In this document: positions 459 through 25,392 of the stretch, piece by piece | Layout: each line of letters opens with the position of its first letter | How positions within the stretch are numbered: the stretch's first letter is position 1 | Assembly (NCBI GenBank): GCA_027062325.1 | Contig: JAMOTN010000046.1 | Coordinates: 1-32,946, forward strand | Reading direction: 5' to 3' | Source: a bacterium | GTDB lineage: Bacteria; JAMOTN01 | DNA length: 32,946 bases | The notes under the pieces: generated by a model | The model's database searches: none | What the model saw: the letters and a program-made list of their open reading frames with translations, nothing else | What the model was told of the DNA's origin: nothing | Translations under genes and position numbers: made by a program

Positions 459-459
459 A

Positions 460-1479: not shown

Positions 1480-1560
1480 AAAAAATGCTTGTGCTAAAAA
1501 TTGTCATTTGACATTGTATAACTATTTATCGTAAAAAGTGATGGTGTTAACGATTAAATT

Positions 1561-1589
1561 TTGATAGTGGAGGGCTTGGTTGTTATAAT
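1561..1589 (+). promoter_or_regulatory. Sigma-70-type promoter before ftsQ
   Basis: TTGATA at 1561-1566 and a perfect TATAAT at 1584-1589 are separated by 17 bp, a near-consensus housekeeping promoter. Transcription should start near 1596, about 8 nt before the ftsQ ATG at 1604. This would give the ftsQ-ftsA-ftsZ-ftsZ genes their own promoter in the 124-bp gap after ddl. A second TTGACA at 1508-1513 has no good -10 partner. Confidence 0.7.
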
Positions 1590-1603
1590 CTCAATAAGTT
1601 GCT

Positions 1604-2230: not shown

Positions 2231-2266
2231 CTGGCTTTACGTTAAAGGGAGGGGTGAATAACCTTA

Positions 2267-3493: not shown

Positions 3494-3527
3494 GGTGAAA
3501 GATAAATAGAGAAGGAGGGAGAAGGGG

Positions 3528-4592: not shown

Positions 4593-4595
4593 GGG

Positions 4596-5864
4596 ATGTT
4601 TGAATTCGAAATTCCGGTACAGGCAAAAGGTGCTGATATAAGGGTAATAGGGGTTGGAGGAGCAGGTTGCAACGCTGTTAATCGAATGATAGAAGTTGGT
4701 TTACAGGGAGTTGAATTTATAGCTGTTAATACGGATGCTCAAGCCCTTGCAAATTCAAGAGCTAAAATAAAGGTGCAGATAGGGGAAAAAGTTGCAAAGG
4801 GGCTTGGCGCTGGTGGAGATATGAATGTGGGGCGCCAAGCGGCGGAAGAAGATCGTGAAAAGCTTGAGGAGATTGTCAAGGGAGCAGATATGATATTTAT
4901 AACTGCTGGAATGGGAGGCGGAACGGGAACAGGAGCTTCCCCTGTAATAGCAGAGATAGCGAGGGACAAGGGGATATTGACTGTTGCAATAGTGACAAAA
5001 CCTTTTATGTTTGAAGGAAGAAGGAGAATGCAGCAGGCAATTGTGGGAATTCAGCAGATAAAAGATAGAGTTGATACATTGATTGTGATTCCAAATCAGA
5101 AATTACTTGAAATTTCGGATACAGAGATGTCTATTGTTGAAGCTTTTAAAAAGGCTGATGATGTCTTAAGACAAGGTGTTCAGGGGATAAGTGAGATAAT
5201 AGTTAAACCAGGAGTCATAAACGTTGACTTTGCTGATGTAAGAACAATTATGAGAGATGCAGGTAGCGCAATAATGGGAATAGGAGAAGCTACTGGAGAA
5301 AACAGAGCTGTTATGGCTGCAGAGGCTGCTATAAACAATCCTTTACTTGAGGCTGGTATTCAAGGAGCCAAGGGAATATTGGTCAACATTGTTGGGTCTT
5401 CTGCTATTACTCTTCATGAGGTATATCAGGCTTGTGAAGTTATCCAACAGGCAGCTGATGAGGATGCAAATATAATATTTGGTGCAGTTATCGACGATGA
5501 GATGAAGGATACGTTTAGGATAACTGTTATTGCAACAGGTTTTGATAAGAAAAAGAGTGATGCCATTGCTGGGGGAATGGGCACAGGAATACCATCTGGT
5601 AGGATGACAGCGAGAGATTTGCTGAAAATGATGGGGAAAACTCCAGCTTCTCAGCATTCTTCAACCCAACCTTCGCAGCCTACTCCGGTAAATTCTTCAC
5701 CGAGGGAAGAAGGAAGTATGTCACCTAGCCAGTCACCGGAGGTAGCTCAGGAGGAGAAGAAAAATATAAATTTACCTGATGATGTTTTTATAGAGACAGA
5801 GGAAGATCTTCCACCAAGGTTAAGAGGAAGAGATAAGGATTGGAATCCGTTTGGGGGAAGATAA
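4596..5864 (+). CDS. ftsZ: FtsZ, second copy, with linker and C-terminal peptide
   Basis: This is a canonical FtsZ GTPase that builds the division ring. The core shows [25 protein letters not shown] (about 106-115) and the NVDFAD synergy loop (about 209-214). After the core (about residue 325) comes a Ser/Pro/Gln/Glu-rich linker, then the acidic-to-basic end TEEDLPPRLRGRDKDW (about 401-416), which fits the conserved peptide bound by FtsA and other partners. At 422 aa it is of usual size. It starts with ATG 3 nt after the first ftsZ, with its ribosome binding site inside that gene's last codons. The two cores differ along most of their length, so the duplication is probably old. Confidence 0.96.
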   Translation: MFEFEIPVQAKGADIRVIGVGGAGCNAVNRMIEVGLQGVEFIAVNTDAQALANSRAKIKVQIGEKVAKGLGAGGDMNVGRQAAEEDREKLEEIVKGADMIFITAGMGGGTGTGASPVIAEIARDKGILTVAIVTKPFMFEGRRRMQQAIVGIQQIKDRVDTLIVIPNQKLLEISDTEMSIVEAFKKADDVLRQGVQGISEIIVKPGVINVDFADVRTIMRDAGSAIMGIGEATGENRAVMAAEAAINNPLLEAGIQGAKGILVNIVGSSAITLHEVYQACEVIQQAADEDANIIFGAVIDDEMKDTFRITVIATGFDKKKSDAIAGGMGTGIPSGRMTARDLLKMMGKTPASQHSSTQPSQPTPVNSSPREEGSMSPSQSPEVAQEEKKNINLPDDVFIETEEDLPPRLRGRDKDWNPFGGR

Positions 5865-5866
5865 AA

Positions 5867-6958
5867 GTGAGAAGAGTTTTGATTTGGGTTGTAGGGCTGG
5901 GCATTTTGTTTGGTTGGTTTAATGTTGTAGTTCACGCGAAAAAGATAGATTTTGATGAGTGGAGTTTTCTAAACATAAAGAGTGCGGGACGTGGTGGGTG
6001 TTATCTTACGTTTTACTCCGATAAAGATACCGCGTATTATAATCCTGCACTGCTGCACTATTATTCTTCTCACCTAGATTTTGGGGCATCTGCTCTTCTG
6101 GAGGGAAATGATGATTTGAGTGATGGTTGGGATTTGATAAATGATTTAGAGGATATATACGATGCTTATAGGGGAAGTGTGTTGCTTTCAGAAAAGATCA
6201 GAGAGAGATTAGATCAGGCTTTGCAGGATAAGCTTAGTCCTTATATCTCCTTTGGAGCAAATGGGGCAATTTTTACCAAAAAGATGCTTGCTTTAGGTGG
6301 AATGGGGCAGTTTATTGTATCGCTTGGTTTGACTGGAACATCTGTGGATCCTCATCTCAAGATCAACGCTTACAGTTCTAAAGTTTTTTACGTTTCAGTT
6401 CCTTTGAAGAGAAGAGTTTTTAATAAAAGGTTTAAGGTTGGAATAACACTTAAAAAGGTTGAGGCAGGAAGCGTTTCACTTGATTGGAATGCCAATACTG
6501 TAGCAAACAACAGTGATGACTTATTGGATTCCATAGATGATGAAATAAAAGAAGATTCGTCGGTCATGGCAGATATAGGTATAGCTTACAAAAATAGAGC
6601 TGGAATATTCATGGCGGCAGTTTTGAGAAATATAGGGAAAGTAGAGATGGCAGGAGGAAAAGAGATAGGGACTACTTTGGATATAGGAATTCGTAAGAAA
6701 GTTGGGTTGTTCACATTGGGTGTGGAGATTCACGATATAGGTACAAATTCAGATTTTTCGGACAAGCTGAAGATAGGTGTTGAGACGAGTAAAATTCCCT
6801 TTGTTGGAGTTTTGAGAGCAGGCTATAACAACAGTGGAGCAACATTTGGATTATCCACACGTCTGTTTATATTTAACTTTGATTTTGCTGTATATAAGAG
6901 AAAAATGTTTGAAGATACAGATGTGGTGTACTCGGCTAGTTTGAGTTTGAGATTTTAA
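5867..6958 (+). CDS. Exported beta-barrel protein, PorV/TraF-like outer-membrane family
   Basis: I chose the GTG at 5867 because it follows the purine run TTGGGGGAAG (5851-5860) and starts a clear signal peptide: RR, a hydrophobic core to about residue 23, then VVHA before KKID. An in-frame TTG at 5840 would bury this. The mature part (about 340 aa) begins with a segment of the type SAGRGG..., then DTAYYNPALL, typical of the loosely related PorV/TraF/UPF0164-type outer-membrane barrels. It continues with alternating hydrophobic/polar strands, many Gly and aromatic residues, and ends in LSLRF, a terminal Phe as in outer-membrane barrels. It follows ftsZ by 2 nt and may be co-transcribed with it. 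Its specific role is unknown. Confidence 0.65.
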   Translation: MRRVLIWVVGLGILFGWFNVVVHAKKIDFDEWSFLNIKSAGRGGCYLTFYSDKDTAYYNPALLHYYSSHLDFGASALLEGNDDLSDGWDLINDLEDIYDAYRGSVLLSEKIRERLDQALQDKLSPYISFGANGAIFTKKMLALGGMGQFIVSLGLTGTSVDPHLKINAYSSKVFYVSVPLKRRVFNKRFKVGITLKKVEAGSVSLDWNANTVANNSDDLLDSIDDEIKEDSSVMADIGIAYKNRAGIFMAAVLRNIGKVEMAGGKEIGTTLDIGIRKKVGLFTLGVEIHDIGTNSDFSDKLKIGVETSKIPFVGVLRAGYNNSGATFGLSTRLFIFNFDFAVYKRKMFEDTDVVYSASLSLRF

Positions 6959-6970
6959 GGTTAGTATGAT
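6941..6970 (+). promoter_or_regulatory. Possible rpsO promoter
   Basis: TTGAGT at 6941-6946 and TATGAT at 6965-6970 are 18 bp apart. The -35 box lies in the end of the preceding coding region. A start near 6977 would give an 80-nt leader containing the whole hairpin region before rpsO. Both boxes are imperfect. Confidence 0.45.
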
Positions 6971-7011
6971 AAGATTTAAAAACCAGGGAGTAATCATTCT
7001 CTTAAATTACC

Positions 7012-7057
7012 CACAAGAAGGCTTATGGCTTTCTTGTGAGGCGAAGGGGGGATAAGT
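7012..7057 (+). promoter_or_regulatory. rpsO leader hairpin with pseudoknot potential (candidate S15 autoregulatory site)
   Basis: CACAAGAA at 7012-7019 pairs with TTCTTGTG at 7031-7038. Inside this stem, GGC/GCT can extend pairing using G-C and G-U pairs. The apical CTTAT (7022-7026) is fully complementary to ATAAG (7052-7056), which lies directly between the purine-rich ribosome binding site (AAGGGGGG, 7044-7051) and the ATG at 7059. The two pairings exclude part of each other only at the stem tip, so an H-type pseudoknot next to the start is possible. S15 is known to repress its own mRNA by binding leader structures, including a pseudoknot in E. coli. S15 binding here is inferred, not shown. 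Confidence 0.55.
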
Positions 7058-7058
7058 T

Positions 7059-7328
7059 ATGTTGTCACGCAAAGAGAAGGCAGAGATCATCAAAAAGTTT
7101 GCACGCCATGAGGGTGACACTGGTTCCAGTGAAGTGCAGATTGCTGTATTGACGGAGAGAATTAAAAGACTTACTGAGCATTTAAAACAGCATCCTAAAG
7201 ATTACCACTCTCGTCGTGGGTTGACTCTCATGGTTGGAAAGAGAAAGAGGCTTTTGAGGTATTTGAAGAGGAAAGATTATGATAGTTATGTGAAAGTGAT
7301 AAAAGAGCTTGGAATAAGAGGAGTTTAA
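7059..7328 (+). CDS. rpsO: Ribosomal protein uS15
   Basis: uS15 binds the central domain of 16S rRNA and helps assemble the small subunit platform. The 89-residue product has exactly the family's usual length and its signature blocks: [37 protein letters not shown] and [15 protein letters not shown]. The ATG follows a strong purine-rich ribosome binding site (7044-7051). The rpsO-pnp order is common in bacteria. A strong terminator follows, so much of the message is probably monocistronic. Confidence 0.98.
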
Positions 7329-7347
7329 ATTAGTTGTTAATATTAAG

Positions 7348-7381
7348 GTGGGTAGGATTAATCCTACCCACTTTTCTTTTT
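7348..7381 (+). terminator. Rho-independent terminator after rpsO
   Basis: A perfect 24-bp palindrome (7348-7371, GTGGGTAGGATT and its complement) forms a stem of about 10 bp with a small loop. It is followed directly by TTTTCTTTTT (7372-7381). It lies 20 nt after the rpsO stop and can stop or attenuate transcription into pnp. Confidence 0.92.
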
Positions 7382-7440
7382 ATGACTGTTTTTATGTTTC
7401 CCGTGTTAGGTGAAAGAGAATTAGGTAGGAGGGAGATGTT

Positions 7441-9810
7441 ATGGAGTCTGAGGTGAAAAAAGTTAGTGTAGAATTTGCTGGGAAAGAGTTGGTTATAGAA
7501 ACAGGAAAGGTTGCTAAACAAGCAGCTGGTGCGGTTGTGGTTAGTTGGGGAGATAACAAGATACTTGGAACTTTGGTGCTTGGTGGAGAGAGGGATGTGC
7601 CGTTTCTACCGTTAACTGTTGAATTTATGGAGAGAATGGGAGCAACTGGTAGAATACCTGGTGGATTTTTCAAAAGAGAGAGTAAACCAAGTCCTGAGAC
7701 TATTTTGGCTGCAAGGCTTGTTGATAGACCAATTAGGCCTCTATTTCCGGAGGGTTGGAATAGAGAGTTGCAAGTAATTTTGGATCCGTTATCTGTGAAT
7801 ACGGATGATGCAATAATAGATGTATTAGGGGTAATTGCAGCTTCTGCTGCTATAACGATTTCACCTGTACCTTTTGATGGTCCAGTTGCTGCAGTGCGGG
7901 TTGGTTATGTCAATGATGAGGTAGTGTTCAATCCTACTCAAGAACAGCTTGAAGAGAGTAAGCTCAATTTGGTAGTTGCTGCCAAGGAAGATGGAATAGT
8001 TATGGTTGAAGCTGGAGCTAAGGAGTTGCCAGAGGATATAGTTATCGATGCACTTTTAAAGGCTTTTGAATTTTTGAAGCCGGTTGTTGAAGTACAGAAG
8101 AAACTTGCAGAGGTTGCAGGAAAGGAGAAGATAGAATTTCGACCAGAAGAAGATCCAGATTACATAGTTTCAGTTGTGCAAGAACATGCAGACAGAATGA
8201 GAGAGTTGATACTTGAAGCAAAGGGTAAAAAGGATAGGGAAGAGAAGCTTTCTAATTTGAAAGAATTGGTAAAGGAGAAATTACTGGAAGAGGCAGAGGC
8301 TCGTGAAGAAGAGTTGAGTGAGGCTGCGTTTGAAAAGGTGTGGCATGAAGTTGAGAAAAAAGTTGTGAGAAAAATGATATTGGAGGAAGGCGTAAGACCG
8401 GATGGGAGAAAAATGGATGAGATAAGGCCCATAAGCATAGAAGTTAACCTATTACCACGTAGTCATGGATCGTGTTTGTTTACTAGAGGAGAGACGCAGG
8501 CCTTAGCTTCTGTGACATTGGGAACACTTAAGGATGCTCAGATTGTGGATACTATGTTTGGTGATGTTAAGAAAGAGTATTTCATGGTGCACTACAACTT
8601 CCCACCATTTTCTACTGGTGAGGTTAAGCCAATGAGAGGGCCTTCTCGTCGTGAAATAGGGCATGGAAATTTGGCACGGCGGGCATTGGAGGCAGTTATG
8701 CCCTCTATCGAAAAATTTCCCTATACTGTGAGAGTTGTATCAGACATTCTTGAAAGTAATGGATCATCTTCAATGGCTACTGTTTGTGCTGGATGCCTTG
8801 CACTTATGGATGCAGGAGTGCCAATAAACAAGGTTGTTGCTGGAGTTGCGATGGGACTTGTTACGGATGAAGATAAGTCGAATGTGAGAATTTTGACTGA
8901 TATAATGGGAATGGAAGATCATTGTGGAGATATGGACTTTAAGGTAGCTGGGACTGAAGATGGAATAACGGCTCTTCAGATGGATATAAAAATAAGTGGA
9001 GTAAGTTACGAAATATTGAAGAATGCTCTTCAGCAAGCGAAAGAGGCGAGATTGTATATTATTGGACTTATGAAAAAGGTATTAGAAAAACCACGTAGTA
9101 GTTTGAGTGAGCATGCTCCTAAGATTATCACGTATCAACTTGAGAATACCAAACAAGTTGCTGAGTTGATAGGTCCTGGTGGCAAAGTTATAAAGGAAAT
9201 AATAGAAAAGACAGGAGTTGAGATAGAGATAGATGATCAAACGGGGCTTGTGTTCATAATTTCTCAGGATGAGGAAAAGTTGAAAGAGGCTTTAGAGTGG
9301 GTCAAGGCGGTAACGAGTGAGATTGCTGTTGGAGAAGTGTTGAGGGGAAAAGTTACTAAGGTTGTCAACTTTGGAGTGTTTGTAGAGGTGAGGCCTGGTA
9401 AAGAGGGTTTGGTTCACATTTCGCAACTGGATGACAGGAGAATTGTCAACATTGCTGATTTTGTAAAGCCCGGCGATGAGATAGTCGTTAAGGTTGTTGG
9501 AGTGGATAGTATTGGAAGACTTAATCTTTCTAGAAAAGAGGCAATAGCTGATACGGGGCAGGAGGATGATTTGAGTGGCAGGACTGATGGAGTTGTAGCT
9601 TCTCGATTGAGTCCTGCTGGATCCAATGATCATTTTAGTGATCATAGAGATAGGGCTAAGGAAGATAGGCACGATGAAGGGAGAGATATGCATGCAAAAG
9701 CTCCGAGAAATTCGGGACGCTCAGAGCACAGGGAATATCGAGACCACTCTCATCGTACTTCCCATGGTCCAAGAAGAGGAGATAGGCGTCATAAGGGACC
9801 TAGAAGATAA
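7441..9810 (+). CDS. pnp: Polyribonucleotide nucleotidyltransferase (PNPase) with long charged tail
   Basis: PNPase degrades RNA 3'-5' with phosphate and works in RNA turnover. Domain order is standard: first RNase PH domain, an alpha-helical linker rich in Glu/Lys (about 240-315), second RNase PH domain with residues D493, D499 and K501 in the EDHCGDMDFK motif matching the E. coli catalytic set, a KH domain with GPGGKVIKEI (about 578), and an S1 domain (about 631-700). The ribosome binding site AGGAGGG is at 7427-7433. At 789 aa it is about 80 residues longer than usual because of a tail (about 703-789) rich in Arg, His, Asp, Gly and Ser, probably disordered and perhaps RNA-binding. The last 119 nt also encode the start of the next gene in another frame. 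Confidence 0.97.
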   Translation: MESEVKKVSVEFAGKELVIETGKVAKQAAGAVVVSWGDNKILGTLVLGGERDVPFLPLTVEFMERMGATGRIPGGFFKRESKPSPETILAARLVDRPIRPLFPEGWNRELQVILDPLSVNTDDAIIDVLGVIAASAAITISPVPFDGPVAAVRVGYVNDEVVFNPTQEQLEESKLNLVVAAKEDGIVMVEAGAKELPEDIVIDALLKAFEFLKPVVEVQKKLAEVAGKEKIEFRPEEDPDYIVSVVQEHADRMRELILEAKGKKDREEKLSNLKELVKEKLLEEAEAREEELSEAAFEKVWHEVEKKVVRKMILEEGVRPDGRKMDEIRPISIEVNLLPRSHGSCLFTRGETQALASVTLGTLKDAQIVDTMFGDVKKEYFMVHYNFPPFSTGEVKPMRGPSRREIGHGNLARRALEAVMPSIEKFPYTVRVVSDILESNGSSSMATVCAGCLALMDAGVPINKVVAGVAMGLVTDEDKSNVRILTDIMGMEDHCGDMDFKVAGTEDGITALQMDIKISGVSYEILKNALQQAKEARLYIIGLMKKVLEKPRSSLSEHAPKIITYQLENTKQVAELIGPGGKVIKEIIEKTGVEIEIDDQTGLVFIISQDEEKLKEALEWVKAVTSEIAVGEVLRGKVTKVVNFGVFVEVRPGKEGLVHISQLDDRRIVNIADFVKPGDEIVVKVVGVDSIGRLNLSRKEAIADTGQEDDLSGRTDGVVASRLSPAGSNDHFSDHRDRAKEDRHDEGRDMHAKAPRNSGRSEHREYRDHSHRTSHGPRRGDRRHKGPRR

Positions 9811-10510
9811 TTTTAAGATAAAAAGGGTTATTTGCGTTGATTGCGATGAGGAAAAGGTTGGCCCCGCTGATGTGTCGGTTTCCAAAGTTTGGATAGGTGA
9901 TGCTGACACGGTTGGCGGGGCCAGCCGCGTTAAAGGCAATTATGATTTAAAGGTGATTTTTTCTGAGGCAAAAGACAAAAGTGATTTTGAGTTGGCACTT
10001 GAAATTGCGCGAAATTTGAGCTACTTTGATTTTGAATCTTCCGAATGGGTAAATAATTTCTTTGTTTTAGGAGCAGTTGGTGGTAGGTTGGATCACGAAA
10101 TGTTCAATTTAGGTGTTGTGTGGAGGTTGTTCACAGGTGATGTTGTGTTAAGGGATAGAGTGAGTTCTAGTAGATTACCTAGCAGTGTGCAGCATTTGAA
10201 AAACTTGCATTTAAGGGTTTCTTTTTTAGGAATTACTGATCGGGGAAGGTGGTATGCTCTATTGTTTTTTGATCAAAAGATTAGTTTTTACCACCGAGGT
10301 ACATTTTCATTCTTGGCTTTGGAAGAGGTATTTGTAAGGATAGATGGGCGATGCAGATGGAGATATGAAGGATACGCTTCCTTTTTTAACAGTTTAACCC
10401 TCAGCAATGAAGCTAGTGGGAGAGTGTATGTATCGGCTCAAAAAGGAGCTATATATGTTGAATTTGATGATAAAAAAGGTTTACTGGAATTTTTAAGAGA
10501 CATTAAATAA
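9692..10510 (+). CDS. thiN: Thiamine pyrophosphokinase-like protein
   Basis: The family transfers pyrophosphate from ATP to thiamine to make TPP. Three family motifs are visible: GDADT (residues 69-73, for the usual GDFDS), KDKSDFELAL (94-103) and GAVGGRLDHEMFNL (127-140). Near the end, SLTLSNEASGRVYVS resembles the thiamine-binding 'SNE' segment. The usual 'GLKWPL' type segment is weak, so activity is not certain. I chose ATG 9692 because GAAGGGAGAG lies just upstream (9676-9685). An ATG at 9764 has no such site, and no start codon exists after the overlap before the conserved core. At 272 aa it is longer than the typical 210-220. It overlaps pnp by 119 nt in a different frame. Confidence 0.72.
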   Translation: MQKLREIRDAQSTGNIETTLIVLPMVQEEEIGVIRDLEDNFKIKRVICVDCDEEKVGPADVSVSKVWIGDADTVGGASRVKGNYDLKVIFSEAKDKSDFELALEIARNLSYFDFESSEWVNNFFVLGAVGGRLDHEMFNLGVVWRLFTGDVVLRDRVSSSRLPSSVQHLKNLHLRVSFLGITDRGRWYALLFFDQKISFYHRGTFSFLALEEVFVRIDGRCRWRYEGYASFFNSLTLSNEASGRVYVSAQKGAIYVEFDDKKGLLEFLRDIK

Positions 10511-12868: not shown

Positions 12869-15100
12869 CTAGACAATGGCAAACAGAGCGTCTAACATGC
12901 TTTGAGTAGTGCTGATTACCTTAGTGGCTGCTACGTATGCTTTTTGATATTTGATCATGTTGGAAAGCTCTTCGTCCAAATTGACTCCACTTACAGCCTC
13001 TCGTTGCTTTTTCAAGGAGTCTAATACGTTTTTTTCTGTATCGTAACGATTTTTGTTTGCTTGGTTTTGGATTCCTATTTTTGCTTCAAAATCTCTGAAA
13101 AACTCTTCGGGTGACATGTTATTAAAGAGCTTTTTCTCTTTCAATTTTATGAGTTTTAGAACATTAGAGTTATCTCCACTGCCTTTGCTGACAAGTTTAC
13201 CCGTTTGATCAAATACTTCTTCGTCAAATCCTGCAGCAGCAATTTTGTTGTAGTCGTCGAGAATGTCTTGAGAGATTGAGACACTTTTTACCGGGTCATT
13301 CCAGTCAATTGAAAAAAAGTTTCTGCCGCTTACCCCGTATAGATCAAAACCTTGAGCATGAATTTTGTTGAATTCTTCTACAAATGTTTTCATAAAATTG
13401 TCAAGATCGTTTTTCAAATCTTCCAAAAGGCCATCTCTTACATCAATTAAGGCTTTGATTTTGCCGCTTCCTGAGAATGAGCGCCATGTTATTGTGGTGG
13501 TACCGGTTGATAGAATTTTCAATGTGGTACCATTGTAATCAACTGTATCTCCCCAAAATTCTATCTCTTCTCCATTAATGTTAACCTTACCGGGAATACC
13601 TTCTTCTATTATTGGAGGTTGGGTTTTTACTTCAGTAGCAGGAATGTTTGAAAGACCAAGTTTATAAAGTAGATCCTCACCACTATCGGATGAAACGAGG
13701 CGAATATCTACCATTTTGAGAGGATCTTTAGAAGAGATTGAAAACATGTAACCATCTTCAGTTTTAATTACTTCGGTTTCTACGTCTGGAACGTTTGAGT
13801 TTATCTCTTTCGCAATATCCTCCAACGTATCATTTACTCCAGCAGTTATTCTTATTATTCTATTGTTGATTTGAAGGACAGCGCCTACTCCAAGATGTTC
13901 TGTTGAACTGTTGATGTTAAATTTTACCTCCCCGCTGGCTCTGGAAAGTAAACCGAGTTTTTCCAAAACGTTGCTGCTTCCACCTTTTAGTTCAATACCT
14001 TCTCCTGTTTTATCTATGAGTTGAATTCTTCCCATAGGAGTGTAGACTGCTTCTACTCCTATGTTTGCATTGTTGATCTTTTTAACAAATTCACTGATAG
14101 TTGCTGTTGGTTCCACATTGAAAACCACACCATTTATAAAAAAAGTTCCGGAGGTAACGTTGTATTGAGAAAGTTGTGCAGTTGATGTAGAAAAATGCTG
14201 TAAACTGGTTATGGTCTCTTCTTTTGGAAGGTTTTCAACTTTTATGGCCATTGAAGGATTATTAACTCCTTCAACAACTGCTACTTCGGGGTTTGAGTTC
14301 CAAGAGCTTCCTTCTACTTTCACACCGTATTTACCATTACCAAAGTCGTATAATTGTACAGGTGTAACTGAGTCTTTTGAAACAATGGTATTACCCCCTA
14401 AGCTGACGATTCCATTTTCCAATCCCTCGGTATCGACAAATTTAACTCCTATGAGTTCTGAAAGTTGTTGAAAGAGACGCTCTCTTTCGTCTAGTAGATC
14501 ATTTTGAAAAGCAGTTTTTGAACTGCTTTTTAAAAGCTCTTTGTTTATTGATGCAATTTTTTGCAGTAGTAAGTTTACCTCAGCTGTGTAATCTTGAATG
14601 TGTAAATTGGCTTCATTCTGTATATCTTCGATTCTGGAATATATGTGTTTTACAGTGTTTAAGAATTGTTCTGCTTTTTCTACAACTGCTGCGCGTGTGG
14701 CTGAATCTTGAGGATTAACTGACAAATCCTGCATTGCTTTCCAAAATTCAAGCCATGAGTCCTGCATTGATGCTTGGGGATTTTCAAATATTCTTTCTAC
14801 TTTTTCAACAATATCTTGGGCAGCTTCCCAATATCCGGTATTTGCAAACTGATCTCTAAGTTGTCCGTCTAGATAACGATTGTTAACTCTTTCTATATCA
14901 ACTAAATCAACGCCAAGACCGGGGGGATTTTTAAATCCTTCTGTTGGAGTGGCTGGTCTTGTCAAAGAAAGTGCATTTAAAACTACTCTTTGGCGAGTAT
15001 AGCCTTCGACTCCTACATTGGCAATGTTATGAGATATAACTTCAAGAGCAGCTTTGGCAGCATTTAGTGCTGTTTTAGATATGCCTAGTGATTGTAACAA
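12869..15100 (-). CDS. flgK: Flagellar hook-associated protein FlgK (HAP1), expanded
   Basis: FlgK forms the first junction layer on the hook. The N-terminus has the rod/hook signature ISKTALNAAKAALEVISHNIANVGVEGYTRQ (split across residues 8-38) and the C-terminus the matching helix GVNLDEELSNMIKYQKAYVAATKVISTTQSMLD. The start is a TTG: an in-frame stop lies just upstream and a run of seven G (minus strand, 15116-15110) sits 9 nt before it. At 743 aa it is longer than most FlgK proteins (about 450-650). The middle holds at least two Flagellin_IN-like repeats, near 318-375 and 395-450 (GTFFINGVVFNVEPTATISEF and a second copy). No clear sigma-28 promoter is visible in the divergent 91-bp gap upstream. 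Confidence 0.94.
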   Translation of the reverse strand: MLQSLGISKTALNAAKAALEVISHNIANVGVEGYTRQRVVLNALSLTRPATPTEGFKNPPGLGVDLVDIERVNNRYLDGQLRDQFANTGYWEAAQDIVEKVERIFENPQASMQDSWLEFWKAMQDLSVNPQDSATRAAVVEKAEQFLNTVKHIYSRIEDIQNEANLHIQDYTAEVNLLLQKIASINKELLKSSSKTAFQNDLLDERERLFQQLSELIGVKFVDTEGLENGIVSLGGNTIVSKDSVTPVQLYDFGNGKYGVKVEGSSWNSNPEVAVVEGVNNPSMAIKVENLPKEETITSLQHFSTSTAQLSQYNVTSGTFFINGVVFNVEPTATISEFVKKINNANIGVEAVYTPMGRIQLIDKTGEGIELKGGSSNVLEKLGLLSRASGEVKFNINSSTEHLGVGAVLQINNRIIRITAGVNDTLEDIAKEINSNVPDVETEVIKTEDGYMFSISSKDPLKMVDIRLVSSDSGEDLLYKLGLSNIPATEVKTQPPIIEEGIPGKVNINGEEIEFWGDTVDYNGTTLKILSTGTTTITWRSFSGSGKIKALIDVRDGLLEDLKNDLDNFMKTFVEEFNKIHAQGFDLYGVSGRNFFSIDWNDPVKSVSISQDILDDYNKIAAAGFDEEVFDQTGKLVSKGSGDNSNVLKLIKLKEKKLFNNMSPEEFFRDFEAKIGIQNQANKNRYDTEKNVLDSLKKQREAVSGVNLDEELSNMIKYQKAYVAATKVISTTQSMLDALFAIV

Positions 15101-15191
15101 AGTGATTCACCCCCCCTTTAATTTTTCGGTAAAATTAAGGAAAGATGAACTATTAAAATAGATACTAAAAATAGATGTAATATGGAGTAAA

Positions 15192-16361
15192 ATGCGTAAT
15201 ATGAAAAGGATTGTGCTTGAGCTACTTTTCTTACTGTTTTTATTTGCTTATTGTAGGATTACCTATCTAGAGTCGCAAGTTATAAGTTTTGATGATTTAA
15301 TTTTGAGAGAGTACGTTGAATGTTTGTTTCCAAATAAGTGTGATATATCTAGGTATGGAATTGTGAATAGGCAAGTGTTTGAAGTTTTTTTAGATAAGAT
15401 AGAGACTACAGCTAATACAATCTTCTCAAAGATAGAGAAGACAAGGATTTACGAGGAAAATTTTCTTGCTACTGTTGGTTTTATAAAAGACTTGATTAAA
15501 GAATATGATTACGATCCAGTATCTATATGGATTTTGCTCGGACAAGTTAAAAAAGATTTTTTGAAAATTCTTCACTACGTTTCTCAAAAGAGAAGAATAT
15601 TACTGGGGTTTTATGCGTTATTGTCTCTGCCTTTATCTCCTTCTGATTATTCAACTAAAGTTGGTTTTTATCTGAATGTTTCTGGAGATAAGTTTATGCG
15701 ACTTCTGTATCCGTGCCGTGTAAAGTGGGAAGAAAAACTGATAAAAAGTTATTTTAATCCTGATATAGTAATAAAACCTTTATTTTTGGAAGATTTTGAT
15801 CCGAGACGGAGTTATTTTAAAGCGTGGTACTGGTTGAAGCCGTCAGTTTTGTATGAGAGCTATTCATTTAGCGATTGGCAATTTATTAAAACTATGGAAG
15901 AATTTTTAAAAGGTCATGAAGAATTGAGGTTGATTTTAAATCCTTATGAAGTTTATCCTGTTTTTAAAATGAAAATTTTGTCTTTTAAATCTTTTGTAAA
16001 GAAGCTAATAGCTTTATCTAAAAGGAGGTCAAGTTTAATTATTGCTGTTAAGCCGTCTTCTTTTGAAGTGTTTATGAAAGGAGCAAATATAGGATTTGTA
16101 GTGGAAGGAGTTGATGATCTTAATGAATTAAGAAATTTTGTGCTTAAGTACAGTTTAAACAAGTGGGGGTTGGTTTATGTTTGGGACAAGTACGAGTACT
16201 ACCTGGACAATGTGACGATAAGTTTTTTGGAATTGGCGTGGAAGTTTGCAAATATATATGGGGCTAGTTATTTTTGTATAGGAAGGAGTAGTTTCATGTT
16301 TTTTAATAAAAAGCCAACTTACATAGCTAAGAAAGTGAAAGAGGTGATATTCTCTAAATAA
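15192..16361 (+). CDS. Exported or membrane-anchored protein of unknown function
   Basis: I do not recognise a family. The 389-residue product starts with a basic tip and a strong hydrophobic stretch (about residues 4-21, ending AYC), so it is exported or held by an N-terminal helix. The residue before Cys is Tyr, so a lipoprotein is unlikely. The rest is rich in Phe, Tyr, Lys and Leu. A hydrophobic segment (LLGFYALLSLPLSP, about 136-149) could be a buried helix. The C-terminal half alternates short strands and helices (SLIIAVKPSSFEVFMKG, NIGFVVEGVDDLNELRNF). GGAG at 15184-15187 favours ATG 15192; ATG 15201 is an alternative. Its stop overlaps the next gene's ATG (TAATG), so the two are coupled. 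Confidence 0.8.
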   Translation: MRNMKRIVLELLFLLFLFAYCRITYLESQVISFDDLILREYVECLFPNKCDISRYGIVNRQVFEVFLDKIETTANTIFSKIEKTRIYEENFLATVGFIKDLIKEYDYDPVSIWILLGQVKKDFLKILHYVSQKRRILLGFYALLSLPLSPSDYSTKVGFYLNVSGDKFMRLLYPCRVKWEEKLIKSYFNPDIVIKPLFLEDFDPRRSYFKAWYWLKPSVLYESYSFSDWQFIKTMEEFLKGHEELRLILNPYEVYPVFKMKILSFKSFVKKLIALSKRRSSLIIAVKPSSFEVFMKGANIGFVVEGVDDLNELRNFVLKYSLNKWGLVYVWDKYEYYLDNVTISFLELAWKFANIYGASYFCIGRSSFMFFNKKPTYIAKKVKEVIFSK

Positions 16362-19096
16362 TGTTTGGAAAGTTGATTGGAAGAATTAGAGTGTTCAGGT
16401 ATTGGTTTTATGTAGTGCTCATGGATATAGACTTTTTAACGGCTTATTGGTTGAAAAAGATATGGAGATATTTAAATGTACCGTATTTTGCACGTTTTTT
16501 TGTAGATTATGTGGTTTCCCCACTTCTTGCAGGTGTATTTGATGCACTAACAGAAGAAGAAAAAAAGACAGCGTGGCAGGCAAATGTTTATTTAAAATTA
16601 GAGTTACTTAAGCGAGATTTGGCTAAGGCTCTAAGAATGGCTCTTCAGTTTAGAGATGAATATTTTGTGGCTTTAATCTCTTTTAAGTTGAAACGTTATG
16701 ATATGGCTGTAAAGTACTCAGAAAATATTTCTAATAGACTAAAAAGAGCTGCATACTTCAAACTGGGTGAGTACGAAAAGGCCTACAAGATTGGTAAGTG
16801 GAAGTTTGCTTTGTTTTATGGAAAAGTTTTAAATGGTGAAAGTTTTAAGTTGGAAGAAGTTAGTTTATCCGAAAAAAAACATCTTTTGAAGTTGGCTTAC
16901 AAGGTAAAAAACTGGGAATTTATTTTCAATAATGCTGATAATCGTTACATTAAATACTTTGCGGGTTTAAAACTTGGTTTGTTGAGTGCCAAGGAAACTG
17001 AAGAATTGTTAAGGGGTTTGAATCCTGACTTTTCCTGGAATAGAGCTTTTGTCGTTTACGAAAAAGAGGATGGGAAGTGGAAACTTTATTTGGGATGGAG
17101 AAAGTGTTTTGAAGGTGAGTTTTTTAATGAGATGTCGTTTGCTTGCTCGTGTATTAATTTGGATGCTCTTGCTTCGAGTTGGTTGGAATTTGAGACACGA
17201 TTTAGTTTATTGAAGGAGCCGGTAGCTGTTCTTTGGAAAAATTTTAATGTTGGTAGATGGCGGGAAATTTTAGAAATTTTGAAGCTCGTAGGGATTGATT
17301 GGAATTATGCTGGAAAGTATTGGTTACCCTTTAAGGCTTTAAGATTTCTGAATTCTTTTTCAAAAAAATCGCGTATGGGGCGTGCTAAAAAGTTAGTTGT
17401 TCTTTGTGGAAAAAGGTGGAGGAGAGATTCGGAGGTAATGTTAAGGGTTTTTAAAAAGATAAACTATTGTCCTCGTTTAAATAGTGTGGAGGTATTTTTT
17501 GGATTGTTGCTGGCTTTCAGATTGTTAAAAAAGGGTCTTGATGAAGATAGAGTTTTCAATGCTTTAGAAAGTATGCTAGCAGAGAATAGAGATAATATAC
17601 GTAATTGTGCTACCTGCAAGTTAAATGAAAGTTGTAGTTTCAAGGTTTTGGATTATTCGGTAAAAAAGATTGATAAATATGAAGAATTATTGGCTGTTAA
17701 TAAATTTTATGAATTTGATACTTCTGAATTGATGGCTTACTGGGGAAAGAATACTTTGGCACTTCCTGAGAAACTTGAGCGTTTATTCAATGAATTTGGC
17801 CCTCGATCTTACTTGGAACCAAATGGTGTACGTATAAAGAGAAATGAGGAGAATGCAATTTTACTGTTTGATTTTTACTTTGAGGGGGTTTCATTATTAC
17901 TTGCAGAAATTTTAGGTTTTGATGTTGGAGCAGAATATGTGGATTATGATGTTGAAATAGTAGGTAAAGATACAGAGAGTATTGAACCTTTAGAATCGGA
18001 GTCTCTTAAAGCAGAAGAGTTGTCAAAGTTAATTTTTAAGTTGGGAGATAGAGAAGTAAAAATTCCAGATGTTTTGAAAGTTGAATTTGATCCTGCAGTC
18101 GTAAGTGGTTTTGTGAATAGGTTTTCAAAAAAGGAGCTTGTTGGATATATGCCTTCGCTTGATCCTACAGATGGGAGTTTTAGTTTGAAGAGATTTATGG
18201 ATGTAGTGGTTGGTAGGGATGATAAAGTTGTGAGTTTGTGGTTGCCAACAGCTTTGGATAGTAGTATTGAGTTGTTTAATGTTTTTAAAAGGGAAAAGGT
18301 GAGTTGGTTAGAAGGTTTTGGAGATAAACTGCTTGATAGGTTTAAGGAAAGATTAGGAAATATAGGATATTTGAAAAATTATATGATTGAGTTTTCTCAT
18401 GATCCAGCAGGATTTTTTGAGTTGAGTGTTTCCAGATTCTTTAAGAGATTGTCGGTTTATAAAAAAACACAGATATTTTTTAATGGCAAAGTGAAAAGAT
18501 TGTTGATGTGGTGGCCGTTTTGGCAACTCCTCGAAGAGTTTGAAGTTTTGTTGAAAAATTATATGAAAAAGGGAATAGAATTTATGTCGTACAGTTTCCT
18601 TGAAGGTTTTTTTGCAGGTTTTGAGGAAAGCATAGATGTTTTACTTGAAAATTTACAGTTGTGTGGAGCTTTGGATTTTGAAATTATTCAGAGTAGAGGA
18701 AGTGCCCCAAATGGCGAGAGTTTTACTAACAAAATAGATGAAATCTGGAATTATTTAGAATCAGAAGAAGAGTTGATGTTGGGAAGTGCACGATTTATTG
18801 AAAATTACAGAGTTGCCGTGGTTCTAAGAGAATTGGGACTAGCAGGATTGGATAAGCTTTGGCAGGTTAAATTGAGGATAACTCCGGCTAAGTTGTATTC
18901 TGAATTGAAAGATAAAGTTTCGGAAGAGAGTAAAACTGATTGGTTAGCTGGTTTATTTGGAATGGTTGTTGGTTGTGGAGGAGAAGGTGTTAAAATAAGA
19001 AAGTTTGATGCCGACAGATTTGCTCTCTACAAGAAGTTTCTATGGGAGTGGAGGAAAGAATTTCTCAAGTTTTTTGAAGTAAAAGAAGAGCGGTAG
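16361..19096 (+). CDS. Large 911-residue protein of unknown function, helical-repeat N-terminal half
   Basis: No family is recognised. The first ~60 residues are aromatic and moderately hydrophobic and might touch the membrane. Residues about 70-210 look like degenerate TPR/HEAT-type helical repeats (for example AVKYSENISNRLKRAAYFKLGEYEKAY in two parts). A Cys cluster C416-x2-C419-x5-C425 could bind a metal or form disulfides. The region about 520-640 is acidic and strand-rich (VEFDPAVVSGFV, GYMPSLDPTDGSF). The C-terminal part is mostly helical with many Trp/Phe. Its ATG overlaps the stop of the gene before by one base, and its TAG overlaps the GTG of the gene after, so all three are made together. 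Base composition is like the neighbours. Confidence 0.82.
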   Translation: MFGKLIGRIRVFRYWFYVVLMDIDFLTAYWLKKIWRYLNVPYFARFFVDYVVSPLLAGVFDALTEEEKKTAWQANVYLKLELLKRDLAKALRMALQFRDEYFVALISFKLKRYDMAVKYSENISNRLKRAAYFKLGEYEKAYKIGKWKFALFYGKVLNGESFKLEEVSLSEKKHLLKLAYKVKNWEFIFNNADNRYIKYFAGLKLGLLSAKETEELLRGLNPDFSWNRAFVVYEKEDGKWKLYLGWRKCFEGEFFNEMSFACSCINLDALASSWLEFETRFSLLKEPVAVLWKNFNVGRWREILEILKLVGIDWNYAGKYWLPFKALRFLNSFSKKSRMGRAKKLVVLCGKRWRRDSEVMLRVFKKINYCPRLNSVEVFFGLLLAFRLLKKGLDEDRVFNALESMLAENRDNIRNCATCKLNESCSFKVLDYSVKKIDKYEELLAVNKFYEFDTSELMAYWGKNTLALPEKLERLFNEFGPRSYLEPNGVRIKRNEENAILLFDFYFEGVSLLLAEILGFDVGAEYVDYDVEIVGKDTESIEPLESESLKAEELSKLIFKLGDREVKIPDVLKVEFDPAVVSGFVNRFSKKELVGYMPSLDPTDGSFSLKRFMDVVVGRDDKVVSLWLPTALDSSIELFNVFKREKVSWLEGFGDKLLDRFKERLGNIGYLKNYMIEFSHDPAGFFELSVSRFFKRLSVYKKTQIFFNGKVKRLLMWWPFWQLLEEFEVLLKNYMKKGIEFMSYSFLEGFFAGFEESIDVLLENLQLCGALDFEIIQSRGSAPNGESFTNKIDEIWNYLESEEELMLGSARFIENYRVAVVLRELGLAGLDKLWQVKLRITPAKLYSELKDKVSEESKTDWLAGLFGMVVGCGGEGVKIRKFDADRFALYKKFLWEWRKEFLKFFEVKEER

Positions 19097-20127
19097 TGAA
19101 GGAAGATTTTAACTTTATCTCTGAGAGTGAAGGGAAGAAGATGAGTTTTATCGAGGTTGTGTTAATAAATACTCTTCATAGATTGAAATTACTTGTTAGG
19201 GAGAAAGAGTATTTATTTCAAGCTTTAGGACTATACTTTTTTATGGCACTTTTGTTTTTCTCGCTTGGCGTATGGGGAACAGTTGTAGAAATTCAGAGTG
19301 GATGGGTTAAAAAGATATATTCACGTTATAGGTCTTACCAAAGATTTGAAGGTGCTAGAGGTGTCTATGAGACGGAAGCCGAATTGGTTATAGGACGTGA
19401 TACTTTCCCCGTAAAAATTGTAGGACGGACGGATCAAAAAAAAGTGTTATTTGGAAGTTATTTTAAAAGGTACAGAAGAGCTAAGGGAATTTTAATTGGT
19501 TTGGATAGAGTGAATGTGAAGTTGGAGCATTTTTTTACAACGGGGTATGAAGATGTAGATAAGTTTATTGTTATTGCTCCAATTGAGTTGGCGTGGAAAA
19601 TAGATATGGCTTCTGGAGTTTACAGTTGGTGGGAATCTGATAAGATACCATCTGCTTTGAGAAACAGTGCGAGGGCAACTGTTGAGGATGTTTATTTTAC
19701 TAAATATGGAGTGGGAAGATTTGAAGTATTGGAGAGTGAGATAGTATCTGTAATAGGTTTTTTGGGAGTTGTGAGTGTTATGTTACTCAGTTATTCTGCT
19801 TCTCTTGGATTGCGCAAGAGATTTGTCAATCTTGATTTGATTTGGAGAGTTAAAAGGGCTAGTTTTTTTTCTTGGAGAAAAATTCCGCAAGTGGCTTGGT
19901 TCACTTTGTTTATGATGACTTATATGGGCATTGTTATTCTGGCTTACTTTACTGCCCAGGGAACAGCTATTTATATATCACAAACAGAGGTGATGAAATA
20001 TTTTAGGGATGTGTATGGAATAAATGAGTTAAGAATTACACTGAGCTTAAATTTTATAATAGCGATAATTTTAGTTATGAGTCTTACTTCGGTTTTAATT
20101 GCTTTTTCTAAAGAAAGGATTTTTTGA
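19096..20127 (+). CDS. Four-helix membrane protein with FtsX-like permease topology
   Basis: Predicted membrane helices lie near residues 43-62, 215-236, 266-288 and 315-338. Between the first and second is a ~150-residue extracytoplasmic domain. One helix, an outside domain, then three helices is the layout of FtsX/MacB-type ABC permeases, and the segment after helix 2 (SASLGLRKRFVNLDLIWRVKR) recalls the coupling region of that superfamily. Similarity is otherwise weak and no ABC ATPase gene is nearby. The GTG start overlaps the previous stop (TAGTG). An ATG at 19141 with GAAGGGAAG just upstream is a credible alternative, giving 328 aa. It is the last gene of the three-gene operon and is followed by a hairpin. 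Confidence 0.6.
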   Translation: MKEDFNFISESEGKKMSFIEVVLINTLHRLKLLVREKEYLFQALGLYFFMALLFFSLGVWGTVVEIQSGWVKKIYSRYRSYQRFEGARGVYETEAELVIGRDTFPVKIVGRTDQKKVLFGSYFKRYRRAKGILIGLDRVNVKLEHFFTTGYEDVDKFIVIAPIELAWKIDMASGVYSWWESDKIPSALRNSARATVEDVYFTKYGVGRFEVLESEIVSVIGFLGVVSVMLLSYSASLGLRKRFVNLDLIWRVKRASFFSWRKIPQVAWFTLFMMTYMGIVILAYFTAQGTAIYISQTEVMKYFRDVYGINELRITLSLNFIIAIILVMSLTSVLIAFSKERIF

Positions 20128-20213: not shown

Positions 20214-20669
20214 TTACTTTTTAATGGGGATCTTTTTAGTTTTCTCTTCTTCTTTCTTGGGGATACGAATTACTAGTATTCCGTTTTTGAACTCTGCTTC
20301 TGCTTTGTCAAAGTCAACATTTTTGGGAAGGCGAATACTTCTTTCAAATTTTCCATAGGATATTTCACTAAAAAGGTAATTTTCTCCTTCCTTCACTTCT
20401 TCTTTTTTGCGTTCTCCTTTAATAGTCAACACATCACCTTTTACATTCAGTTCGATGTTTTCTTCCTCAATTCCAGGAAGTTCTACCTTCAATACCATTT
20501 CATTTTCCTTGTCGATTAGCTCCATGGCGGGAAAAGATGCGGCAGTTTCATACCGAACTATATCCGGTATGAACTCAGACAGAATTTTATCGGTTAATCT
20601 GAAGATGTCTCTTATTGGACTAACTCCAAATTCTTCCATATTATTTGGTTTTCTTGGCCATCTGTTCAT
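20214..20669 (-). CDS. Small heat-shock protein (Hsp20/alpha-crystallin family)
   Basis: These ATP-independent chaperones hold unfolding proteins in large oligomers in the cytoplasm. The 151-residue product has a short N-terminal arm, then an alpha-crystallin domain starting near residue 46 (ELIDKENEMVLKVELPGI) and including GDVLTIKGERK and FKNGILVIRIPK. It ends with the oligomer-forming IxI motif as IPI in KKIPIKK. The minus-strand AGGAGGG just before the ATG is an excellent ribosome binding site. No CIRCE operator is present upstream. It reads in the same direction as prmA after a 135-nt gap and so may have its own promoter, though I see no convincing boxes. Confidence 0.96.
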   Translation of the reverse strand: MNRWPRKPNNMEEFGVSPIRDIFRLTDKILSEFIPDIVRYETAASFPAMELIDKENEMVLKVELPGIEEENIELNVKGDVLTIKGERKKEEVKEGENYLFSEISYGKFERSIRLPKNVDFDKAEAEFKNGILVIRIPKKEEEKTKKIPIKK

Positions 20670-21691: not shown

Positions 21692-22432
21692 TTAAATAAT
21701 TTTGAAAGTTTGAACCAGAAAGGCAGTGTGTGCAATCATCCTATCTGTTGGACGCAGCGCTTTAGGGTTCGGATTCCATTCACGGTGCAAAATCTCTAAT
21801 ATCCGGGTAGCAACGAATTTTTTTGTTTTTAAAGTTTCCAAAAGCTCTATAATTTGAGTTGTTGTTGGAACTAGAAATACTACTGATTTGCCAGGTTTTA
21901 GGACTTTGTATACAGCTTCTACCATAGCAAAAGGTTCCGGAACATCTATGAAGACAGCATCTGCTATTTCATCTTGGATAGGGAACTTCTCTTTTATGTC
22001 GGCATTTATCAAGTGATAGTTGTTGAATTGTGAGAATTTTTTTAAGTTTTGTTTTGCAATATTAATAAAAGAAAAACGCCTTTCAAAGCTAAGTAGTTTC
22101 CCTGTAGGGCCAATCATGTTTGAAAAAAATATCGATGCTGATCCCGAACCTGTTCCACATTCCACTACTGTACTTCCAATACGAAGATCCATGAGAAAGG
22201 GCAGCATAGCTAATTCTTTTGGAAATAGGATTTGTGTCTTCCTGTCAAGTTTTTTTATAATGTCCTCCAGCGTTGGATAGAGTATGTGAGCTTTAATTCC
22301 TTTATTTGATTGTATTGTTTGGCCGTAATTTTGTGAAATCTCTTCTTCTGGAAAAGTTCCCTTATCAGTGTGAACAGAATGGAGTTTTGAGATTAGGAAT
22401 TTGCGTTTTTTGTCTATTCTTATTAACTTCAC
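21692..22432 (-). CDS. trmI: tRNA (adenine(58)-N1)-methyltransferase TrmI
   Basis: TrmI makes m1A58 in the T-loop of tRNAs, which supports growth at high temperature in Thermus. The sequence shows the N-terminal small beta domain, QILFPKELAML, the SAM-binding motif VVECGTGSGSASIFF, the acidic FERR after it, the catalytic-region motif DAVFIDVPEPF, then a late HREWNPNPKALRPTDRMIAH segment with HTAFL, all as in the family. Length 246 aa is normal. The GTG start overlaps the stop of the pseudopilin-like gene by 4 nt (GTGA), and AGGTGA lies 6 nt upstream. It is followed by prmA, so two translation-machinery methyltransferases are paired. Confidence 0.93.
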   Translation of the reverse strand: MKLIRIDKKRKFLISKLHSVHTDKGTFPEEEISQNYGQTIQSNKGIKAHILYPTLEDIIKKLDRKTQILFPKELAMLPFLMDLRIGSTVVECGTGSGSASIFFSNMIGPTGKLLSFERRFSFINIAKQNLKKFSQFNNYHLINADIKEKFPIQDEIADAVFIDVPEPFAMVEAVYKVLKPGKSVVFLVPTTTQIIELLETLKTKKFVATRILEILHREWNPNPKALRPTDRMIAHTAFLVQTFKII

Positions 22433-22980
22433 TTCAATTCACCTGCCAGAATTTTTTCTGCTTGAGAGGGAATAGTTTTGTGTAGAGAAAAAAGCAGATT
22501 ATCTTTATAAAAAACTTGAAATTCAAACATAAAAATTTTTGATCTGGTTACGCTATCGTCCAACTCTTTATCGTGAATCAATACTTTGCCATTTGAGAAG
22601 TAGTAAGGGATAAATTTTATCTCTACGCTATCCGGGAGGTGAATGAAATTTGTTCTGCCAGCTTTTGAAATTTGAATTTTTGATTTTGAAAACTCTACAG
22701 TCATTGTTTCCTCCTCGGCTATTGATGCAACTGGAGGTTTTAGTTTGAAAGATATGAAGTTTGATTTGCAACGTGTGACTTCCGAGACATTTTCTAACAG
22801 ATCGCCCAATTTAGTTATGGCTTTATAAGAAAAGAGAAGACGAGATGTTTTCTCTTCTAAAAAAATTCCGCGTTTGTTGATATAAAGCCATACCTGATTT
22901 ATGACGATTCCAATAAAAGAAGCTATTGCAATAGAGATTAAAACCTCTGGTAATGTGAAGGAGTGAATTTTGTACCTCAT
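22429..22980 (-). CDS. Pseudopilin-like protein with type IV prepilin N-terminus
   Basis: The N-terminus MRYKIHS-FTLPEVLISIAI has a short basic leader, then FTLPE and a ~20-residue hydrophobic helix, the class III signal of type IV pilins and type II secretion pseudopilins. Glu at position +5, needed for assembly, is present. The residue before the cleavage point is Ser where prepilin peptidase normally needs Gly, so processing may be weak or absent. The remaining ~155 residues are a beta-rich globular domain I cannot assign. No other pilus gene is near. No ribosome binding site precedes the ATG, and a TATAAT (22994-22989) ends only 8 nt before it. Its stop overlaps the trmI start. Confidence 0.75.
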   Translation of the reverse strand: MRYKIHSFTLPEVLISIAIASFIGIVINQVWLYINKRGIFLEEKTSRLLFSYKAITKLGDLLENVSEVTRCKSNFISFKLKPPVASIAEEETMTVEFSKSKIQISKAGRTNFIHLPDSVEIKFIPYYFSNGKVLIHDKELDDSVTRSKIFMFEFQVFYKDNLLFSLHKTIPSQAEKILAGELK

Positions 22981-24088: not shown

Positions 24089-24955
24089 ATGAGTTGGGCA
24101 AATATTGATAAAGCAAATGACTTGTTTGAGAAGGCACTGGAATACTTTGAAAATGAAGATTTTAGTTCTGCTGAGAAAAATTTAAAAGAGGCTCTTAAGA
24201 AAGATCCAGAATTTGCTCAAGCATACATAAAATTGGGAGACATCTATCTCCTAAGGAATAAATTGACAGAGGCTAGGGATTATTATGAGAAGGCTTTGAA
24301 AATTAATCCGGATTCTATTTTAGCTTTGTATAAACTTGCGGATACTTATTTGAAAATGAGAATGTACAGTCAGTCTATAAAGTTGTTCCGTGAGTGTATT
24401 AAAAAAGGCGTAGAAGATCTTGAACTTTATGTTTCAGCAGATGAAATCTATGCAAAGCTTGGAGAGGCTTACTTAAAGAAGGGAGATCTTAAAAAGGCTG
24501 CAACCTTCTTGTTGAGAGCTTTGAACATAGCTCCGACTTCTCTTGTTGCGCGCTATCATTACGCTGTTTTGTTGCTAAGAAAGAGAAAACTGGATGAAGC
24601 AGAGCATAATTTTCGAGTTGTCATAGAACAGACTACTCGTTCGTTAGAAATAAGTGCTCAAAATCCGGGGGTGTATTTTTTCAGGGGTAAAGCAAACTTT
24701 CACATATTTAACTACGGAGATGCAAAGAGGGATATATCAAGAGCAATTGAGTTGGATACTGAAGAGATTGATTATCACGTTTATGAGGGGTTGGGATATA
24801 GCGATGCAGATGCATATGTAGCTTTGGGTGAAGTTTACAAAAAAATTGGCGATAAAATTAAAGCGGAGGAGTATTGGAAAAAGGCTCTTGAAATAGAACC
24901 TGATCATCCATTGGCAAGGAGGTATTTGTCCGGGTGGAAGTTGGTAATCTGGTAA
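24089..24955 (+). CDS. Tetratricopeptide repeat protein
   Basis: TPR repeats fill the protein: at least six helical pairs of the pattern A..YIKLGDIYLLRNKLTEARDYY-EKALKINPD, ending with KIKAEEYWKKALEIEPDHPLA. There is no signal peptide, so it is probably a cytoplasmic scaffold for protein contacts. The site GGGAGGTG before ATG 24089 is strong. The next gene, a FlgJ-like rod-binding protein, starts within its last 22 nt in another frame, so the two are translated together and may work together, perhaps in flagellar assembly (inference). Confidence 0.9.
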   Translation: MSWANIDKANDLFEKALEYFENEDFSSAEKNLKEALKKDPEFAQAYIKLGDIYLLRNKLTEARDYYEKALKINPDSILALYKLADTYLKMRMYSQSIKLFRECIKKGVEDLELYVSADEIYAKLGEAYLKKGDLKKAATFLLRALNIAPTSLVARYHYAVLLLRKRKLDEAEHNFRVVIEQTTRSLEISAQNPGVYFFRGKANFHIFNYGDAKRDISRAIELDTEEIDYHVYEGLGYSDADAYVALGEVYKKIGDKIKAEEYWKKALEIEPDHPLARRYLSGWKLVIW

Positions 24956-25392
24956 GGTATGGGTTGGCTTCAAATGGAACGATGTTATACGAATCTGATC
25001 CAGTTTCTAATTTGGATTTCAGAAGATTTAAAAAGATGTCTAAAGAAGAGCAACTGAAAAAGTTGCGTGAGCTTGCTGATGAGATGGAAGCGTCCATGGT
25101 TAAATCACTTTTAGTTAAAATGAAGCGGGCAAGTGAATGGAGTGAGAAGCCGTCGCTTGCCCGCCGTTTTTGGGAAGAGGAGCTTTTTGGAAAGTGGGCT
25201 GAAGTTATAGCCAAGAGTGGGGACTTGGGGATAAGTGAGGCAATTTACAATCAGTTAAAAGAAGCAATAGAAGGAAAAGGTTTGAAGGGGAAAGTGGTTG
25301 AAAAGATTGATGTAGTTGATGAAATTGATAAAGAAAAAACTTTGACTTCTCCAAAACTGGATTTATCTAAATTTAGGCTTAGAGCTCCTTAA
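24934..25392 (+). CDS. FlgJ-like rod-binding domain protein
   Basis: The central part matches the pattern of the rod-binding domain (FlgJ N-terminal type): a helix LRELADEMEASMVKSLLVKM like the family's 'AAxEFEALFLxQLLKxMR', then FWEEELFGKWAEVIAKSG and DLGISEAIYNQL, like 'xYxDMLDxQLAxxIAxxGGLGLAxxLxxQL'. This family helps assemble the flagellar rod in the periplasm. There is no muramidase domain, as in most FlgJ homologues outside Proteobacteria. The 152-residue protein also lacks a signal peptide; rod-binding proteins use the flagellar export system. The GTG start has AAGGAGG at 24917-24923, inside the TPR gene. The match is by pattern only, supported by flgK and flgL elsewhere in the window. 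Confidence 0.62.
   Translation: MEVGNLVRYGLASNGTMLYESDPVSNLDFRRFKKMSKEEQLKKLRELADEMEASMVKSLLVKMKRASEWSEKPSLARRFWEEELFGKWAEVIAKSGDLGISEAIYNQLKEAIEGKGLKGKVVEKIDVVDEIDKEKTLTSPKLDLSKFRLRAP

Follow-up and report, generated by a model that had tools for sequence, protein, structure and literature searches.

A three-gene operon that may encode a diverged, lineage-restricted inner-membrane complex without its own motor

Three adjacent genes (P1, P2 and P3) in a bacterial contig of 32,946 nucleotides, the whole of which was analysed and is referred to here as the window, look like an ordinary lineage-restricted operon rather than a demonstrated new machine. With a probability of roughly 0.42, we read their products as a diverged inner-membrane complex that is lineage-restricted, as far as is visible, and has no motor of its own. 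In such a complex, P3, with its outer domain, would serve as the hub in the membrane. P2 would be a scaffold in the cytosol or at the membrane surface that docks on the basic P3 loop joining the second and third transmembrane helices (TM2 and TM3), and the anchored P1 would face the periplasm and partner the outer domain of P3. Since none of the three carries an energy-coupling module, a role in the assembly, signalling or maintenance of the envelope would be more likely for the complex than pumping. The genes and their candidate transcription signals are as follows.

15106..15135, + strand: candidate sigma-70-like promoter, a weak match (TTCACC-18-TAAAAT), upstream of P1
15192..16361, + strand: P1, 389 aa, with an N-terminal hydrophobic anchor and no family match
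16361..19096, + strand: P2, 911 aa, predicted to be soluble/cytosolic, with no family match
19096..20127, + strand: P3, 343 aa (328 aa if it starts at ATG 19141), with four TM helices
20133..20165, no strand: 15-bp hairpin, a plausible terminator, exactly in the gap between the convergent P3 and hsp20

P1, P2 and P3 are real genes, because their codon usage is like that of their neighbours (correlation with the rest of the window of 0.74–0.82, compared with 0.71–0.88 for known genes) and because the antisense frames across P2 hold 28–48 stops, which marks the 911-codon frame as genuine coding sequence. The one-base overlaps proposed in an earlier, sequence-only reading of this DNA are confirmed by inspection, both in their coordinates and at the two junctions (TAATG for P1/P2 and TAGTG for P2/P3). 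These overlaps are not special, as trmI/22429 and tpr/24934 also overlap by a few bases within the same window. The same reading took the overlaps to imply strict co-translation; the overlaps are present, but P3 has a second in-frame start, ATG 19141, that lies 45 bases past GTG 19096, is preceded by AAGGGA and has an equally good predicted ribosome-site energy (−5.6 versus −5.2 kcal/mol). The start of P3 is thus uncertain and the one-base P2/P3 overlap may not be the one used; a start at ATG 19141 would leave a 44-base gap between P2 and P3. Upstream of the P2 ATG we observe AGAGGTGAT, with a long spacing. Sigma-70-like sites occur at chance level in number, so the match upstream of P1 is a candidate only; terminator-like sites overall are likewise not above chance, and the hairpin after P3 has a long stem. 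Elsewhere in the window, a thiamin-pyrophosphokinase-like ORF (9626-10510, +) overlaps the end of pnp (7441-9810) by 185 bases, and its true start probably lies downstream of the listed one. The blocks of + strand genes at 1-10000 and 16000-20000 have a GC skew of 0.35–0.48, a very strong excess of G over C on the coding strand.

The operon is bounded on one side by the divergent flgK (12869-15100, − strand) and on the other by the convergent hsp20 (20214-20669, − strand). This placement raises the alternative that survives best, which is that P1–P3 are a flagellar accessory by virtue of their adjacency to the hook-filament junction genes flgK and flgL. In its favour, flgK and a flgL/flagellin-like gene lie directly upstream on the opposite strand, and a FlgJ-like rod-binding gene is found 4.8 kb downstream. 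However, the strand and promoter of the operon differ from those of flgK, none of the three proteins matches a flagellar family, and the adjacency may be accidental because the other neighbours (hsp20, prmA, trmI, pnp and ligA) are unrelated. We regard a flagellar role as unlikely.

The sequence-only reading had placed the first two proteins outside any recognised family, which holds up: comparisons of P1, P2 and P3 with Pfam, NCBIfam, PADLOC and PHROGs at E values up to 1, and with PDB sequences, gave nothing meaningful, the anti-phage defence models of PADLOC returning 0 families at E 1 for each protein. Relatives were equally elusive. Matches were at chance level for P1 in 386 genomes spread across the domain and for P2 in 290 genomes, including two P2 matches (L011 and L012) that were inspected and judged to be chance, and nothing beyond chance was found for P1, P2 and P3 in IMG/VR or for P2 and P3 in plasmids. 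A search for P2 by peptide seeds in GTDB contigs likewise gave nothing beyond chance. In 386 genomes, nothing beyond chance was found for P3, its best match being the YihY/BrkB-type protein discussed below. We also observe no paralogues of P1–P3 in the stretches of their own genome that were examined. The source genome (81 contigs, 1.65 Mb, 84% complete, with the window as contig C46) is the sole member of its phylum among the genomes searched, and no other PNPase searched shares more than 54% identity with its own. P3 had no match in the 9 genomes of the phylum whose PNPase comes closest, and the PNPase neighbourhoods of 20 other genomes contain nothing resembling the operon. Because the genomes searched include no other of the same phylum, this empty search for relatives is weak evidence.

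Family misses are also to be expected in this lineage, as about a third of the window's genes are without a confident Pfam family. The gene between ddl and ftsA (1604-2230, +), which by position is presumably ftsQ, has one N-terminal helix and matches POTRA_1 only at E 0.02, a case of an ordinary division protein that has diverged to an extreme degree in this lineage. The FlgJ-like rod-binding gene (24934-25392, +) matches its own family at about 0.002, below the cut-off, as does a prepilin-like gene with an N-terminal methylation motif (22429-22980, −; about 0.002). These last two sub-threshold matches suggest that flagellar and type IV pilus parts may be encoded nearby. Since all three of these genes score below threshold, the family misses of P1–P3 mean little, and P1–P3 may well be ordinary envelope proteins that have diverged past recognition. 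The operon most likely encodes a much-diverged but ordinary envelope or surface-appendage accessory that lies beyond the reach of profiles. Deeply isolated genomes often carry lineage-restricted operons whose proteins cannot be recognised, and P1–P3 are at least as likely to be an old machine that has diverged past recognition as a new invention. In the same window, two complete ftsZ genes lie in tandem directly after ftsA (3528-4592 and 4596-5864, +). They are 49% identical over 338 residues and both score far above the FtsZ cut-off; we found no report of tandem ftsZ genes in a limited search of the literature.

The predicted locations of the three products are complementary. As the sequence-only reading proposed, the 389-residue P1 is anchored at its N-terminus: hydropathy gives a single segment at residues 7–25, followed by about 360 residues predicted to lie outside, and no lipobox or signal-peptidase site is seen in P1. 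The protein has a cysteine pair (C44/C50), and its C-terminal half appears by eye to alternate between strands and helices. Residues 141–180 show a recurrent short resemblance to ORFs that we take to be pyruvate:ferredoxin oxidoreductase beta subunits; the rest of that protein is absent from P1, and the candidate was rejected. P2 has no clear TM segment (a marginal one lies at 500–518), a hydrophobic, aromatic-rich N-terminus and the cysteine cluster noted earlier, a CX2CX5C arrangement at C416/C419/C425. The helical repeats that had been attributed to P2 do not rise above chance. Two stretches near 100–145 are TPR-like by eye, but Pfam TPR matches P2 only at E 0.09, no internal repeats score above shuffled sequence, and the TPR-profile score is equalled by 36 of the 198 shuffles reported, such that two or more TPR units above chance were not found.

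P3 has four predicted TM helices (46–64, 216–234, 266–284 and 320–338) in an N-in orientation, with an outer domain of about 150 residues between TM1 and TM2 and a strongly basic TM2–TM3 loop at about 239–262. Structure prediction from the single sequence reproduces this order of elements in P3 but provides no usable fold for either P3 (pLDDT of 43.6, falling to about 30–40 in the outer domain) or P1 (pLDDT of 40.8, too poor for naming a fold), and a Foldseek search with the low-confidence P3 model returned noise only. The layout raises a second unlikely alternative, standing just behind the flagellar one, in which P3 would belong to the type VII (ABC3/FtsX-like) permeases, though strongly diverged, and would draw on an ATPase from another locus; P1 would then partner it on the periplasmic side and P2 would play an accessory part. 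The order of elements in P3 is indeed that of FtsX and MacB, and its basic stretch lies where MacB has its coupling helix, between TM2 and TM3 (PMC5985334), although the MacB outer domain is larger at about 200 residues (PMC5985334). The FtsX of the same genome carries EIEIMRLVGATEWF between TM2 and TM3; no profile aligns the basic stretch of P3 as a coupling helix. For P1, the model in such a system would be EnvC, the periplasmic partner of FtsX.

Comparison of P3 with the permease families argues against this assignment. In its own genome, PF02687 picks out two permeases (on contigs C75 and C18), whereas it gives no match to P3 even at E = 10. A profile of 11 division-FtsX-type proteins gives P3 7.4 bits, a score equalled by 174 of 500 hydropathy-preserving shuffles, whereas the 11 true FtsX-type proteins, each scored with itself left out of the profile, reach 25–188 bits and are matched by only 0–2 of 200 shuffles. 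The score of P3 against a MacB-type profile (1.2 bits) is within that of its shuffles, and hhalign gives 1.4% against the FtsX profile and 0.5% against the MacB-type profile. Because P3 misses PF02687 and scores like its own shuffles while true FtsX-type proteins beat theirs, its likeness to FtsX is one of topology and layout alone. The description of P3 as FtsX-like consequently stands for the four helices and the outer domain after TM1 but not for PF02687, hhalign or the shuffle comparisons, and its assignment as an ABC3-type permease is unsupported.

The ATPase complement of the genome points in the same direction. A canonical FtsE-FtsX-EnvC locus is found on C18 and a MacB-type ATPase–permease pair on C75, so that both ABC3-type ATPases recovered already have permeases of their own. 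Among the PF00005 matches inspected in the 84%-complete genome, no unpaired FtsE- or MacB-type ATPase was found. The remaining ATPases that could be clearly identified either sit with partner genes of their own or belong to different ABC types; from our reading of the ORFs, we take these other clear PF00005 matches to be LptB, Mla, Opp, Ecf, Fet-like, Znu-like, sugar, ABC-2 and Ccm-like ATPases. At one locus (L142, G000:C32), a TPR-like ORF (2-1414) overlaps a diverged ABC ATPase gene (1405-2127) that is CcmA-like by eye.

A further possibility, and a distinctly improbable one, is that P3 is related to the YihY/BrkB family, in diverged and truncated form. The best match of P3 beyond its own genome, among the 386 genomes, is a YihY/BrkB-type protein in G218 (P3 residues 221–323, 29% identity, E of 4.9e-6 for that genome), and with a BrkB profile built without the G218 protein, P3 scores 16.6 bits, a value reached by 24 of 1000 hydropathy-preserving shuffles. 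This shuffle result is insufficient, however, because the G218 lead was chosen from 386 genomes and is thus partly selected. At E 10, PF03631 has no match in the genome of the window, P3 included, and for most other BrkB proteins the score in the comparison with P3 is about zero. The architecture also differs, with a TM1–TM2 span of about 150 residues in P3 versus about 50 in the G218 protein, whose last two helices P3 does not have.

The absence of an ATPase gene from the operon, noted in the sequence-only reading, is confirmed, with no Walker A motif in P1, P2 or P3. That reading went on to suggest that P2 might replace or recruit the ATPase. We consider it highly implausible that P2 itself replaces the ATPase and drives P3: the operon encodes no large soluble protein other than P2, which fits no known family, but neither an ABC signature nor a nucleotide-binding family (at E 1) was found in it, and the idea has lost its main support because membership of P3 among the ABC-type permeases fails in the hhalign and shuffle comparisons, leaving no footing past topology. 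The chances are just as slim for a membrane machine that keeps the FtsX/MacB layout but no longer has an ABC ATPase, with P2 driving or gating it and P1 receiving its signals, although an FtsX-like complex without an ATPase would, if true, change the view of how transmembrane mechanotransmission is powered.

We return to a diverged inner-membrane complex without its own motor as the preferred reading. The three genes lie on one strand, overlapping or nearly so, between a divergent and a convergent neighbour, and they encode an anchored outer protein, a soluble protein and a polytopic protein with a basic cytosolic loop. From this arrangement we infer that the products associate, that P2 docks on P3 and that their role is in the envelope or a surface appendage. 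Against this, co-transcription is no proof of interaction, and P1 and P2 could be unrelated lineage-specific proteins.

Several known systems resemble parts of this proposed assembly. The two TPR-like stretches of P2 recall TPR scaffold proteins, from which P2 differs in that its scores are not above those of shuffles. YihY/BrkB proteins (PF03631) share a weak local similarity with P3 across TM2–TM4, whereas P3 has a larger outer loop and fewer helices. The MacB/LolCDE permeases have the same four-helix layout with a periplasmic domain as P3, yet the P1–P3 operon contains no ATPase, either fused or adjacent, and the MacB-type profile does not separate P3 from its shuffles. Finally, although the sequence of P3 is not FtsX-like beyond its hydropathy and FtsE is absent from the operon, FtsEX with EnvC, a type VII ABC system of cell division, is comparable in that FtsX, too, is a four-helix protein whose outer domain lies between TM1 and TM2 and which has a partner protein on the outer side.
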